The notes under the pieces: generated by a model
Told to the model about the DNA's origin: nothing
Seen by the model: the letters and a program-made list of their open reading frames with translations, nothing else
Databases searched by the model: none
Assembly (NCBI GenBank): GCA_030430205.1
Contig: JAUIGE010000001.1
Span: 372,001-436,000, forward strand
Direction of reading: 5' to 3'
DNA: 64,000 bases
From: Bacteroidia bacterium
GTDB lineage: Bacteria; Bacteroidota; Bacteroidia; J057
Part shown: piece by piece, positions 43,955 through 56,503 of the stretch
Position numbering within the stretch: the stretch's first letter is position 1
Layout of the letters: each line of letters begins with the position of its first letter
Translations under genes and position numbers: made by a program

Positions 43955-43975
43955 TTATTCACATATTTATCCACA
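43955..43975 (+). promoter_or_regulatory. Two adjacent DnaA-box-like sequences in the moxR-VWA gap
   Basis: TTATTCACA (43955-43963, one mismatch) and a perfect TTATCCACA (43967-43975) lie in the short gap between the MoxR stop and the VWA-protein start. With only two boxes this is more likely a regulatory site or chance than an origin. Confidence 0.45.
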
Positions 43976-48201: not shown

Positions 48202-48217
48202 TGTTCCACGTGGAACA
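48202..48217. other. parS site 1
   Basis: TGTTCCACGTGGAACA is a perfect 16-bp palindrome matching the bacterial parS core recognised by ParB (nGTTYCACGTGRAACn). It lies between mnmG and ybeY and is identical to the second site 67 bases away. Confidence 0.9.
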
Positions 48218-48268: not shown

Positions 48269-48284
48269 TGTTCCACGTGGAACA
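48269..48284. other. parS site 2
   Basis: A second exact TGTTCCACGTGGAACA palindrome, just before the ybeY stop. No parA or parB gene is present in the window. Confidence 0.9.
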
Positions 48285-48807: not shown

Positions 48808-49236
48808 TCAGATATTAAATATCATCTCTACTTGTCTGCCATTGTCTGTATAGAAAATCTGATCAGACAATTGTTCCATCAGAAATACGCCCCGGCCTCC
48901 AATTTTTCCAACATTATCCGGTGCGGTAGGATCGGGAAGCATACCTGGCTCAAAGCCCACTCCTTCATCATGCACGCGGATAAGTAGTCTGTAATTGTTA
49001 GGGATTTCAAACTCTACATACACTTTTTTACTCGCATCGGAGTCATTGCCATGTATGATAGAATTGTTGACAGCTTCTGTCAAAGCTACCATGATGTTTG
49101 CATAAACATCGGCCTTCACTTTCAACTCCTGCCGAATTTCTTCAATGACAGCCTCGACCTCTGTGATGGATTCGACTGTGCTAGGCAGGGCTAATTGTTT
49201 GTAAATCATGGGGCGAAGATTTGCGCTGCTACTCAT
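48808..49236 (-). CDS. RsbW/anti-sigma-type HATPase regulatory protein
   Basis: A 142-residue single-domain GHKL serine kinase-like protein. N box: ALTEAVNNSIIHGN; G1: RVHDEGVGF; G2: GGRGVFLMEQL. RsbW/SpoIIAB homologues bind sigma factors or phosphorylate STAS-domain antagonists. No sigma or anti-anti-sigma gene lies beside it, so the partner is unknown. It overlaps the DUF4175 gene stop by 8 bases (ATG at 49236 against stop from 49229), which indicates translational coupling. Confidence 0.9.
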   Translation of the reverse strand: MSSSANLRPMIYKQLALPSTVESITEVEAVIEEIRQELKVKADVYANIMVALTEAVNNSIIHGNDSDASKKVYVEFEIPNNYRLLIRVHDEGVGFEPGMLPDPTAPDNVGKIGGRGVFLMEQLSDQIFYTDNGRQVEMIFNI

Positions 49237-52200
49237 TAGATTCTTCTAATTTTTTGTAGTACTGCTCTATCAATTTAATAAAATCACTGGAGTATTCCAG
49301 CTGGTTTGACTTGAGTAGTTCCTGTCTCAATTTGTTTTTGTACTCTTCCTCAGAAAGTTTTTCCGGGCTTTTTCGCTCATCGACAAAGCCTGATTTGGAC
49401 TCTCTTTTTTCATCAAGGTCACGCTCTCTGATGGCTTTATCAGAATGTAACAAACGAGTCAGAATCTTTTTCTGGCGTTCTATGGTCTCTTTTGTCAGCA
49501 TTTTCTTGAGCAACTCCTGCTCTGTCTCCTCCATATCTTCCATCACTTTTCCCATGTCTCCCAGGCCTTTTCCCCCTTCTTCCTGTATCTTTTGGTGGGC
49601 TTCTTTTAAGGCTTTGCGAATAGCTTCCTGCTGCGCAGCCATCTGAGCCAGTTTACCTGGGTCCATGCCTCCCTTTCCTTGCCCCCCTTTCATCATCTGC
49701 ATCATTTGCTCATTGAGCTGCTGTTGCTGCTGAATCATCTTCTCCATACCTTCCCCAGAGGAACCCGGTTTCGGGCACATCCCCTGCCCTTGCATGGCAC
49801 TCATCATCTGCTGCTGTATCTGCTTCATCACTTCAGAGAGCATATTCGCCAGCTCATTGATGCTGGTCATCGCCGTCTGCTGGTGATAGTTGATCATCGG
49901 AATCTGCTTATTGCGGAAAAACTCCTGAGATTTTTTCATGTTCTCAGTGATGTTTTTCGTCTCATCCAGAACCTTTTTCTCTATCTGAAACACCTTCTTA
50001 GCCAGGGCTTCCAGGCTATCTTTTACCAGCCCCATATCATCCTGAAGCTTCTTCTGGCCTTGTCCCTTTTCCTTTAGAACGGGGTCGCCATACTTCAGGC
50101 TCTTGACTTCATCACGTAAATCTTCCTGGTCAAATGACAGCTTCAATAAGTTTTCGAGAAGCTCACGAAGGTTCTCCAGGTTTTGCTGATCCTGCTGCTG
50201 CTGCATATCCATTTGCATTCCAGACAACTGCTCAGACATCTCCTGCATCTTTTGCTTCGCATCTTTTTGCTTTTGAGAAGCACTGCTTTTAGAGGATTTT
50301 GATTGACTCTTTTTGCCTTCCTGGCTCTTTTCAGACGCATCTTTCAACTGCTCAGAAGCATCTTTCATATCCTCTTTTGCCTCATCTCCCTTCTTATTGA
50401 TGTCATCCATTTTCTCCTTATCAGGCGTCTTCGTCTCTTCTTTCATCTTATTCAACTCCTCCAAATCCTTCTGGATTTCCTCCATCTGCTTCTCCAATTC
50501 TTTCTGACGCTCTGCATTTTTCTCTAAGCCTTCATTATCCTTTGGATCTGTATTCTCTGTCTTTTCATTCAGGTTTTCCTGCTTGGCTTCGAGATTTTCA
50601 AGCTTATTTCTGATTTCATCTATCTTGGCTTGTACCTCCAATTGCTTCAGCAATTCAAGTGTCCGCTCCAGGCTTTTCTGGATTTCTTCATCACTCATCT
50701 CCAGGTTTTCCAACTGCTCTTTGATCGCTTCGGGATCAAGTTCTTCCATCTCCTCCTGCATCTTCTTGAGCATTTCTTCGACCTTGGTGTCCTTGAGTTT
50801 TTCCATAAACTCATTGAGCTGCTCGTATTTCTCAAGCGTTTGCTCTGAGATCATTTGGTTCTTTTCAAGCTCTTCTTTGGTTTCTTCAAACTTCTTTTGC
50901 GCATCTTCTATCTGCTTCATCATGTCCTCATGCTCCTTGATCATCTTTTGAAGCTGCTTCTTATCATCAAAAGAAAGCTGTTTTTTATCAAGTAGCTCGC
51001 GCTGAAATTTCTTGTACTGCTCCTTAAGGTCTTCGGACTTGCGCTTGAGGTTTTCAAGGTCGTCTTTGACATCATCCTGCTTGGCAGCCAGTTCATCATA
51101 CTTATCATCCAGGGTAGGATATATAACTTTGAAAGTGGCGCTGGTACTTGCCTTTGCACCTGATACCCCATCATTGTCCCAAACCTTGATATAGTATTCC
51201 AACTCATCTCCTTCCCGCAATCCCAATTCAGTCAGGTCAACCAGGTAATTGAGTGGCTGGAGTAAAGTCTTCTTTTGTATTTTCAAGGCATATTCCTTGT
51301 AAGAAGTAGAGACATCATTCTCCCCACCTGACTTGGTGAATCGGTAGAACAGGCTCATTTTGGTGAAACCAAAGTCATCGGCAATCTCCAACTCCAGCGG
51401 CATGCTGGGGTCAAGATCAACGAGAAAATCGTTGTTGGGAGAAAATACATATACAGATGGATAGCGATCCAGCAGCACATCTGCACGGTACTTGACCGTG
51501 TCAATATTGGATATGCCTTCTGATGAATTCAGGGAAATAAAATATTCCAGGTTATCCATCAGGCGATGGTTATAGCGGAACATTTCTGCATTTTCCTGAA
51601 GTTTAAATGGCTGAACAGATTTGTCAATATCATTGACCAGAAAAGCTTCAGAAAGGGCACCTTGTGGTTCCATCTCCCAGCTGATGCTGCTGCCTTTGAT
51701 GGCTTTGAAATCTCCCACATTATCTTCCAGCACTTCTGATCCCAAGCCTGTATATGCGGGGTAATTTATCTTAATTTTGAATTTTTTAATAAATGGTCTT
51801 TTCAGTACTTTGATATTATACTGATCAAAATCAACTCGCTCAAAAGCGGGATTGGTGACATAGAAAGAGAAGTCTTCCTTCAGATCAGAAAGCACATAGG
51901 AAAAGGAAGCATTGGATTCCTTCTCCAGGGTATAATCCAGAAACTGGGTTTCTGAAGATTTTTTCATGTAGATGAAAAGCTCTTCAGGAAGTTCACGGCC
52001 TTCCACTTTTACCTCTACTTTATAGTCCTGTCCGGCAACCATCTCTGAGGGAACCTCAGTAAGGATAACAGTGAAAGATGCCGGTGGCACAAAGTCATCC
52101 TTATAATTGATCAGGTGGGCCGCACTGGAGCTTAGCAGGTCTTTATCTGCCAGGTAAGTCATTCCGAAGAACAGGAAAGGAATCAATAACAACAACAAAT

Positions 52201-52657
52201 ATTTGCGGTTCACATTGAGGTTGATCGCACGGCTCAAAGGAACAGGGGCAATTTCTGCCGCTTTTTGATCTACAGCTGCCAAAGCCAGCTGATTGTCTCG
52301 CTGGCTGCTTCTCAGTTGAAGCAGGTTAATGAGTTTGTCATTGATGTTGGGAAAATAGTTTTTGACCATCCCAGCGATCTGGAAGTCAGATATGGTCTTA
52401 GACAAGCTTAAGAGCTTGCTTAAGGGCCAAAGGACCATAAAGCCAAGGGTCAATAGGAATATACCTCCAAGGCCAAATACGATGCCCGTACGCACGCCTG
52501 AGGAAAAGCCAAAAAGGCCTTCACTCAAAAGTGCGACAAAAATCATCGAACTAAAGAGCAAAAGAAGGATCAAACTCCCCCGCAGAATCTTGTCTGTGTA
52601 GTACTTCTTTCTGAAGTTCTGAAGTTGTTGATCAAGTTGTGATGTTGATTGATTCAT
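49229..52657 (-). CDS. DUF4175 membrane protein with long coiled coil
   Basis: A 1142-residue protein. Two N-terminal TM helices (about 25-90) and a third near 155-172 anchor an extracytoplasmic Ig-like region (about 190-500) with Bacteroidota DUF4175 hallmarks. A coiled coil of more than 350 residues, rich in Lys/Glu/Asp (about 510-880), follows, then a Gln/Met-rich segment (LNEQMMQMMKGGQGKGGMDP). The C-terminal segment has ETEQELLKKMLTKETIERQK. The family is conserved across Bacteroidota; its exact role is not established. It is coupled to the RsbW-like gene by an 8-base overlap. Confidence 0.9.
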   Translation of the reverse strand: MNQSTSQLDQQLQNFRKKYYTDKILRGSLILLLLFSSMIFVALLSEGLFGFSSGVRTGIVFGLGGIFLLTLGFMVLWPLSKLLSLSKTISDFQIAGMVKNYFPNINDKLINLLQLRSSQRDNQLALAAVDQKAAEIAPVPLSRAINLNVNRKYLLLLLIPFLFFGMTYLADKDLLSSSAAHLINYKDDFVPPASFTVILTEVPSEMVAGQDYKVEVKVEGRELPEELFIYMKKSSETQFLDYTLEKESNASFSYVLSDLKEDFSFYVTNPAFERVDFDQYNIKVLKRPFIKKFKIKINYPAYTGLGSEVLEDNVGDFKAIKGSSISWEMEPQGALSEAFLVNDIDKSVQPFKLQENAEMFRYNHRLMDNLEYFISLNSSEGISNIDTVKYRADVLLDRYPSVYVFSPNNDFLVDLDPSMPLELEIADDFGFTKMSLFYRFTKSGGENDVSTSYKEYALKIQKKTLLQPLNYLVDLTELGLREGDELEYYIKVWDNDGVSGAKASTSATFKVIYPTLDDKYDELAAKQDDVKDDLENLKRKSEDLKEQYKKFQRELLDKKQLSFDDKKQLQKMIKEHEDMMKQIEDAQKKFEETKEELEKNQMISEQTLEKYEQLNEFMEKLKDTKVEEMLKKMQEEMEELDPEAIKEQLENLEMSDEEIQKSLERTLELLKQLEVQAKIDEIRNKLENLEAKQENLNEKTENTDPKDNEGLEKNAERQKELEKQMEEIQKDLEELNKMKEETKTPDKEKMDDINKKGDEAKEDMKDASEQLKDASEKSQEGKKSQSKSSKSSASQKQKDAKQKMQEMSEQLSGMQMDMQQQQDQQNLENLRELLENLLKLSFDQEDLRDEVKSLKYGDPVLKEKGQGQKKLQDDMGLVKDSLEALAKKVFQIEKKVLDETKNITENMKKSQEFFRNKQIPMINYHQQTAMTSINELANMLSEVMKQIQQQMMSAMQGQGMCPKPGSSGEGMEKMIQQQQQLNEQMMQMMKGGQGKGGMDPGKLAQMAAQQEAIRKALKEAHQKIQEEGGKGLGDMGKVMEDMEETEQELLKKMLTKETIERQKKILTRLLHSDKAIRERDLDEKRESKSGFVDERKSPEKLSEEEYKNKLRQELLKSNQLEYSSDFIKLIEQYYKKLEESNE

Positions 52658-54200: not shown

Positions 54201-55235
54201 CTATCCATTCTCCCCCCTAAAATGATCCCAACCCTGAGCCTCAACATCAGCTATGCCACCTGTATCCAGTAAAATCTGGATTTGCTTTTCATCCGGGGTG
54301 ATTTTCCCGATAATATGAAAATTGCCCGATGATTTCACTTTATCATAATCCTTCAAGGGAAGGGTAAACATCAACTCATAATCTTCTCCTCCATTCAAAG
54401 CGAAAGTGGTAGCTCCAATTTGGAACTCCTCAGCCACTTTAAGTGTCTGATAGTCAAGGTTTAACTTGTTTGCATAGATCAAAGCACCTACTTTGCTTTG
54501 GTGGCAAATATGGTGTAACTCACTGGCGATACCATCGCTCACATCGATCATAGCCGAAGGCCTGACGCCCATCTCCCGCAGCTCCTGGATGATATCCCCC
54601 CGAGGTTCAGGCTTCAACTGTCTTGCCACCACATAATCGTAATCAGAAAGATCCGGCTGCAATTCAGGATTGTTTACAAAAGAATTTTTTTCCCTCTCCA
54701 GCACCAGCAAGCCTGCATAGGCTGCTCCCGCATCTCCGCTGACGCAGATCAGGTCATTGGGCTGCGCGCCAGATCGATAGACGATCTCTTCTTCTTTGGC
54801 CTGGCCAAAGGCTGTTACCGAAATCACCAGTCCCTGCCTGGAACTGGTCGTATCTCCTCCCAGCAAATCAACATGATAGCGCTCGCAAGCGAGCTTGATG
54901 CCTTCGTACAACTCGTCGATCGCCTCGACGGTAAAGCGATTGCTGAAAGCAATCGAGACCGTGATCCCAAAAGGGACTGCATTCATCGCAAAGATGTCGC
55001 TGAGGTTGACCGCGACAGCCTTGTAGCCGAGATGGCGCAGCGGGGCATAAGAGAGATCGAAGTGCACGCCTTCGGCGAGCAGATCCGTGGTGTATACCTG
55101 CACCAGGCCATTCCCAATGGGAACCACGGCGGCATCGTCGCCTATGCCTTTGATCACCTGGTTGTGGGTGGTCTTAAATTTATTTTTGATTCGTTCGATC
55201 AGACCGAATTCTCCTAAGGTTGAAATGGGGGTCAT
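54201..55235 (-). CDS. thiL: Thiamine-monophosphate kinase ThiL
   Basis: ThiL phosphorylates thiamine monophosphate to the active diphosphate, using ATP. The 344-residue protein shows FGLIERI at the N-terminus, KGIGDDAAVVPIG (Mg/ATP site), TTDLLAEGVHFD, LLGGDTTSS (Mg), VSGDAGAAYAGL and AMIDVSDGIASEL. NGGEDYELMFT is the conserved C-terminal sequence. The length is close to the family norm of 320-340. It is monocistronic here; 116 bases upstream is the stop of a small membrane-protein gene with its own hairpin terminator. Confidence 0.95.
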   Translation of the reverse strand: MTPISTLGEFGLIERIKNKFKTTHNQVIKGIGDDAAVVPIGNGLVQVYTTDLLAEGVHFDLSYAPLRHLGYKAVAVNLSDIFAMNAVPFGITVSIAFSNRFTVEAIDELYEGIKLACERYHVDLLGGDTTSSRQGLVISVTAFGQAKEEEIVYRSGAQPNDLICVSGDAGAAYAGLLVLEREKNSFVNNPELQPDLSDYDYVVARQLKPEPRGDIIQELREMGVRPSAMIDVSDGIASELHHICHQSKVGALIYANKLNLDYQTLKVAEEFQIGATTFALNGGEDYELMFTLPLKDYDKVKSSGNFHIIGKITPDEKQIQILLDTGGIADVEAQGWDHFRGENG

Positions 55236-55777: not shown

Positions 55778-55851
55778 GCAGTAGGCAGTTTCTGTTTGCA
55801 GCTGGTCTGCGATAGCATGAGGCAAGACTGCCTACTGCCCACCAGAAACTG
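55778..55851. repeat. Pair of inverted repeats in the leader of the small membrane-protein gene
   Basis: GCAGTAGGCAGT (55778-55789) is inverted at 55827-55838, and CAGTTTCTG (55786-55794) is inverted at 55843-55851. The two pairs interleave rather than nest, so the arms would compete or form a pseudoknot-like fold. Confidence 0.55.
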
Positions 55852-56503
55852 CTAACTGACCCAAGGGCAAAGTTACGGAAAAGCAGCCAATTCTCAGGCG
55901 GCATTTTCTGCGAAAAAGGGCTTTGAGAATCTCCTGCATAATCTCTCTCTGTACCTTAGCACAGGCGCTGAAATGAGAAGCCAGCAAAATCCCTTTTAAA
56001 TCTTCCTTCTTAATATCATTAATCTTCTTTTTTTATATAAATAAAGAATAGTAATACTAATGGAGCTGTGGATAATAGGGATAAGTTTTTGAATTTAGGC
56101 TTGACTTGGAAGTTGCCAAAAGGTTGTACACATAATATTTGCTCGCTATGGATTTAGAGCTTGTTCATTTTCAGGCATCTAAGATATCCTTTCCACATAT
56201 CCACAGAGTCCGTTGTTTATAGCTTTTGGGATAAAAGAAAAAAAAGAAATTGTGAATATCAGGATGACAAGTGGGGGCTTTTTCCCCAGCTATTATCCAC
56301 AAGCCTGAGCTATCCACGAAATCCACACTAATCCACATAGGTGTGGAAAGAGTTTATCCATAGTTGCCTTACTTTTTCCCCACTTATCCCCAATGACTGT
56401 TGAAAAGCTTTGGCTGAAAATCAGGCAGTTAAGAAAGTTATCATAAATGCTGTGGGAAATCGCATCGGGGCTTGATCGGGAGTAGAGTTTTGATATGAAG
56501 GGC
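55826..56503. other. oriC: Gene-free segment, putative chromosomal origin oriC
   Basis: No coding frame is convincing over about 680 bases. An AT-rich tract (about 56003-56062, including long T runs and TATATAAATAAAG) is followed by DnaA-box-like 9-mers. Perfect TTATCCACA sites are at 56067-56075 (minus) and 56293-56301 (plus). One-mismatch sites are at 56197-56205, 56329-56337, 56354-56362 and 56384-56392. Weaker ones are at 56124, 56189, 56251, 56310, 56319 and 56342. Such a density, next to an unwinding-type AT tract and 8 kb from two parS sites, is typical of oriC. Functional proof is not available. Confidence 0.75.

Follow-up and report, generated by a model that had tools for sequence, protein, structure and literature searches.

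The window analysed here, a stretch of 64,000 nucleotides, corresponds to positions 372001-436000 of the 476,865-bp contig C14, which belongs to a 7.24-Mb draft genome in 80 contigs. The original prediction had placed a putative chromosomal replication origin at 55826-56503, in a gene-free stretch with a small membrane protein and a methyltransferase as neighbours. This range contained no ORF of at least 80 aa, and its neighbours were an ORF of 157 aa, which has no Pfam match and whose sequence looks membrane-spanning, and a gene for a class-I methyltransferase; farther to the left lies thiL. The named relatives of ThiL belong to Bacteroidota, with the MAG HKST-UBA03 as the nearest of them. 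An Rfam search of the stretch produced no match near the gathering score, and an RNA gene was rejected. The range was right in being gene-free and in holding the element, but it was too wide, since the core occupies about 56000-56480 (Table 1).

Other details of the prediction held as well. The AT-rich tract proposed at about 56003-56062 is real (88% AT over 50 bp from 56012). Within the window it is unexceptional and not the most AT-rich stretch, which counts against an origin. Two perfect DnaA boxes on opposite strands and four one-mismatch boxes, all on the plus strand, were found as described. With 12 more sites at two mismatches, 'about ten' DnaA-box-like sites was a fair count. The two parS sites reported 8 kb away were confirmed, and the genome holds none elsewhere.

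Table 1 Features of the candidate origin region and its surroundings, and dnaA and dif-like sites in relatives (window coordinates unless a contig is given)
Feature	Position	Strand	Basis or remark
parS sites GTTCCACGTGGAAC	48203-48216 and 48270-48283		only copies in the 7.24-Mb genome
thiL (thiamine-monophosphate kinase, AIRS domain)	54201-55235	-	in the family, oriC is found on its 5' side
AT-rich tract, probable duplex-unwinding element (melting predicted)	56003-56066		AT tract conserved in family relatives
Seven consecutive DnaA-trio-like triplets AAT-AAA-GAA-TAG-TAA-TAC-TAA, then 6-bp spacer TGGAGC	56040-56060	+	published criteria
Conserved module for probable unwinding, comprising trios, spacer and boxes	56043-56092	+	position-matrix match
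Perfect DnaA box TTATCCACA, BUS anchor adjoining the trios	56067-56075	-	column-by-column alignment in relatives
Second tandem DnaA box TTATCCCTA, weak (2 mismatches), within the conserved GGGAWAASTT stretch	56076-56084	-	alignment
Paired boxes CTTTCCACA and ATATCCACA within motif TCCACATATCCACA	56189-56205	+	box scan
One-mismatch DnaA boxes	56197, 56329, 56354, 56384	all +	motif scan
Perfect DnaA box TTATCCACA	56293-56301	+	motif scan
Array of weaker boxes: 56310, 56319, 56329 (1 mismatch), 56342 (minus strand), 56354 (1 mismatch), 56374, 56384 (1 mismatch)	56310-56392	+	box scan
Conserved right-hand element TTATCAT...TGTGGGAAA...GGGGCTTGA	56440-56478		alignment with G001
dnaA and dif-like site, G003:C1	dnaA 25-1431; dif-like 16275		14.9 kb apart
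dnaA and dif-like site, G005:C1	dnaA 2671019-2672413; dif-like 2686886		14.5 kb apart
dnaA and dif-like site, G008:C186	dnaA 101792-103180; dif-like 87293		14.5 kb apart

Density of DnaA boxes

The two perfect and four one-mismatch boxes lie within about 330 bp, against an expectation of 0.1. Over 408 bp, 6 sites differ from the box by one mismatch or none, whereas 2000 composition-matched Markov simulations yielded a mean of 0.145 and never more than 2; a Poisson estimate gave about 2e-4 stretches of this density in the whole genome. When 1.59 Mb of the genome was scanned, a portion that includes every place where two perfect boxes fall into a 400-bp span, the cluster ranked first with 6 sites in 350 bp versus 4 in the next, as the original prediction had expected of an origin. 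Another perfect box was observed about 12 kb to the left of the candidate origin, at 43955-43975 of the window, with a one-mismatch box 12 bp from it.

The probable unwinding module and its conservation

Elements of the basal origin unwinding system (BUS) have been searched for as a DnaA box with at most two mismatches, a spacer no longer than 16 bp and three or more.A. triplets (PMC8287927). Here the perfect box at 56067-56075 is followed, across a spacer of 6 bp, by seven such triplets in the correct orientation. The element matches a BUS in its sequence, and DnaA-dependent strand separation is predicted. It shares with the BUS of Bacillus subtilis and relatives (PMC8287927) the DnaA box, the 6-bp spacer, the seven.A. 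triplets, the AT tract and a weak second tandem box, whereas the triplet nearest the box is TAA instead of TAG in most members, and a family-specific GGGAWAASTT block follows the box. The unwinding assays in PMC8287927 included no Bacteroidota DnaA. AT-rich DNA readily yields.A. triplets; their conservation speaks more strongly for the trios.

Conservation was followed across 60 genomes with thiL as the anchor. In eight other genomes of the family (G001-G008) a box cluster homologous to the element lies 5' of thiL, with a common module: after an AT tract come triplets of the kind TAGTAGTAA, then GG with a few further bases, then TGTGGATAA and finally GGGAWAASTT. A sequence-only profile built from eight family genomes, that of the window included, found one strong site per genome, always adjoining thiL. 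A position matrix built without the genus of the window scored 42.4 bits at 56043 and at most 22.9 bits elsewhere in 1.59 Mb of the same genome. The similarity extends to the right of the module: motif TCCACATATCCACA (56189-56205), aligned with G001 and compared by eye in the relatives, reappears there as CTTATCTACATATCCACA, and a TTATCAT...TGTGGATAAG element in relatives is similar to the one at 56440-56478.

Among held-out genomes, the module was matched at the thiL locus of G015, which belongs to another family of the same order, and 1.4 kb from the only parS site of G036, a member of the same class. Class-wide profile matches above E 0.01 were mostly set aside as chance, except those in G036 (box cluster and parS) and G015 (thiL). 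In genus g9 of the same family (G009, G011 and G012) no DnaA-box cluster was found beside thiL; this counts against the origin call, and the location is therefore not universal. A weak module match together with two perfect boxes was seen at C46:24889 (L237) of G012, possibly a relocated origin.

GC skew, parS and dif-like sites

The cumulative GC-skew minimum of the whole contig C14 was located at contig position 428027, i.e. at 56027 of the window and inside the AT tract. At the scale of this contig, the skew check attached to the original prediction thus came out in its favour. Two observations count against it: the part of C14 to the right of the element measures just 49 kb and has weakly positive skew, and the strongly skewed gene at 49229-52657 contributes to the slope on the left. 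Because the right side is short and weakly positive, the skew of this genome alone is suggestive, not decisive.

Skew was also considered in relatives with longer contigs. On the 7,538,910-bp contig of G003, skew was sampled in twenty 20-kb stretches, and its sign was negative in all ten left of the element and positive in all ten on the other side (p = 9e-5). A continuous profile over 400 kb reached its minimum at 3,787,707, some 0.3 kb away from the module (3,787,398-3,787,445). Sparse sampling of G005 gave a non-significant result (p = 0.14) with more than two sign changes; the two extra changes, at about 1.2-4.3 Mb of C1, suggest a rearrangement, an integrated replicon or an assembly error.

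The palindrome GTT[TC]CACGTG[GA]AAC of ParABS systems occurs near the element. In all seven family relatives that carry both on one contig (G001-G007), parS lies 6.5-7.5 kb from the orthologous element, the range across the family being 6.5-8 kb, and the reversed control pattern had no matches in these genomes. The locus resembles a ParABS centromere in the GTTCCACGTGGAAC palindrome and its two copies near the origin, and differs in that 7.24 Mb contain only two of them. A different picture was seen in G054, where six of 11 parS-type palindromes are spaced about 99 or 198 bp apart at C24:13203-13809 and look like a tandem array.

The opposite side of the chromosome was located with a dif-like pattern, ATAA-N6-TTATGTWAA, taken from general knowledge of XerCD sites. 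It matched once on the main contig of G003 and once on that of G005, and the dif core ATAATTTAYATTATGTTAA occurs in the majority of the 60 genomes, as a rule in a single copy. From the element to the predicted dif, the two arms measured 3,771,137 and 3,767,773 bp in G003 and 4,082,403 and 4,081,619 bp in the 8.16-Mb G005, so that the predicted dif falls within 1.7 kb and 0.4 kb, respectively, of the opposite point. The near-equality of the arms supports both the origin and the dif calls. Arms equal within 0.1% (G003) and 0.02% (G005) are unusually precise for chromosomes of 7.5-8.2 Mb. Further dif-like sites were noted on other contigs of G005 (C2:63541, C3:220289 and C5:54690); these contigs could be secondary replicons that XerCD resolves, or the sites may be chance matches.

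Identity of the element

Box-cluster rank, the contig skew minimum and the relatives support the reading put forward in the original prediction, and we regard 56003-56480 as almost certainly the chromosomal oriC, with initiation predicted at this site. The features of a DnaA-type oriC found here are a box cluster beyond chance, an AT-rich region beside the boxes, a skew minimum (judged on the 477-kb contig and the sampled whole chromosome of G003) and a position opposite the predicted dif (judged on G003 and G005 only). Adjacency to dnaA is common for bacterial origins and not required; here dnaA lies on another contig. Compared with DnaA-dependent bacterial origins (DoriC / Ori-Finder; PMC10225481), the element is alike in its box cluster, AT-rich unwinding region, skew minimum, nearby parS and intergenic position, and differs in lying away from dnaA, between thiL and the methyltransferase gene. 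It is a well-supported oriC of an ordinary kind, the class of DnaA-type origins being already known. For this family of large-genome Bacteroidota, no published origin was found in the literature searched.

A cluster of this kind need not initiate replication: datA- and DARS-type loci of E. coli are also built of DnaA-box clusters, and the window could hold such a DnaA-titrating or DnaA-reactivating locus. Loci of this type are, however, unexpected at a skew minimum, opposite dif, by the sole parS pair and adjoining an AT tract that has trios, which makes this assignment very improbable.

It is extremely unlikely that the origin lies instead beside dnaA (C73:76809-78203) and that the cluster in the window is something else. 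A perfect DnaA box is indeed present about 390 bp upstream of dnaA, but only two boxes were found near the gene, and the 175-kb contig C73 carries no parS and shows a cumulative skew that rises throughout, with no minimum near dnaA. In G003 and G005, moreover, dnaA is opposite the locus marked by skew and parS, near the dif-like site. An origin at dnaA was rejected on the box count and the skew of C73.

Three further clusters of the same genome, at C43:215690, C20:55647 and C38:43242, each have two perfect boxes within 350 bp. Their totals are 3-4 boxes against 6, parS is missing from their contigs, the conserved module scores weakly there or not at all, and no skew minimum occurs at the cluster on C20, so that it is hardly credible that one of them is the origin; together with a cluster on C6 they were rejected for having fewer boxes and no parS. 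The clusters on C43, C20 and C38 may be gene-regulatory or DnaA-titration sites.

Finally, a chance box cluster combined with a skew minimum created by local gene orientation, for which the steep slope from the gene at 49229-52657 alone would speak, has a practically negligible probability, as chance is excluded by the simulations and by conservation across eight genera, and the relatives refute this reading, with the same skew switch extending over the whole chromosome of G003.

With oriC as the assignment, the course of initiation can be outlined from established BUS and DnaA biology. DnaA-ATP would occupy the strong box (56067-56075) as well as the boxes arrayed on its right. From the strong box, the anchor, a DnaA filament would extend leftwards along the single strand in which the trio-like triplets lie (56040-56060), thereby melting the AT tract (56003-56066). 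DnaB helicases would be loaded after melting, and two forks would depart in opposite directions. The box array at 56189-56392 would raise the local DnaA concentration or control timing. Once copied, the origins would be segregated by ParB bound to the parS pair at 8 kb distance.

Position of dnaA

In three genera dnaA was found about 14.5 kb from the dif-like site, and in the two near-complete chromosomes, G003 and G005, it lies opposite the origin (Table 1). In the genome of the window the contigs differ (C73 for dnaA, C75 for the dif-like site), and the two must be at least 76 kb apart. We give an even chance to the idea that the family, as seen in G003, G005 and G008, keeps dnaA across the chromosome from oriC, at the terminus and at a distance of about 14.5 kb from dif; at that position the initiator gene would be copied last and have the lowest dosage. 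The usual arrangement is an oriC-proximal dnaA, and a terminal dnaA is the reverse of it. No description of a terminal dnaA was found in the open-access papers searched. The arrangement in the relatives is unusual and might surprise a specialist; it remains a lead.

Implications

For a whole family of large-genome Bacteroidota, this work fixes where the origin and the probable unwinding site lie and in which direction melting is likely to proceed, and the sequence profile supplied locates the element in relatives. Rotating such genomes to dnaA makes the record begin near the terminus, not the origin, and would mislead growth-rate estimates based on read depth. Should the terminal position of dnaA prove real and maintained, the family would offer a natural test of whether the position and dosage of dnaA time initiation.
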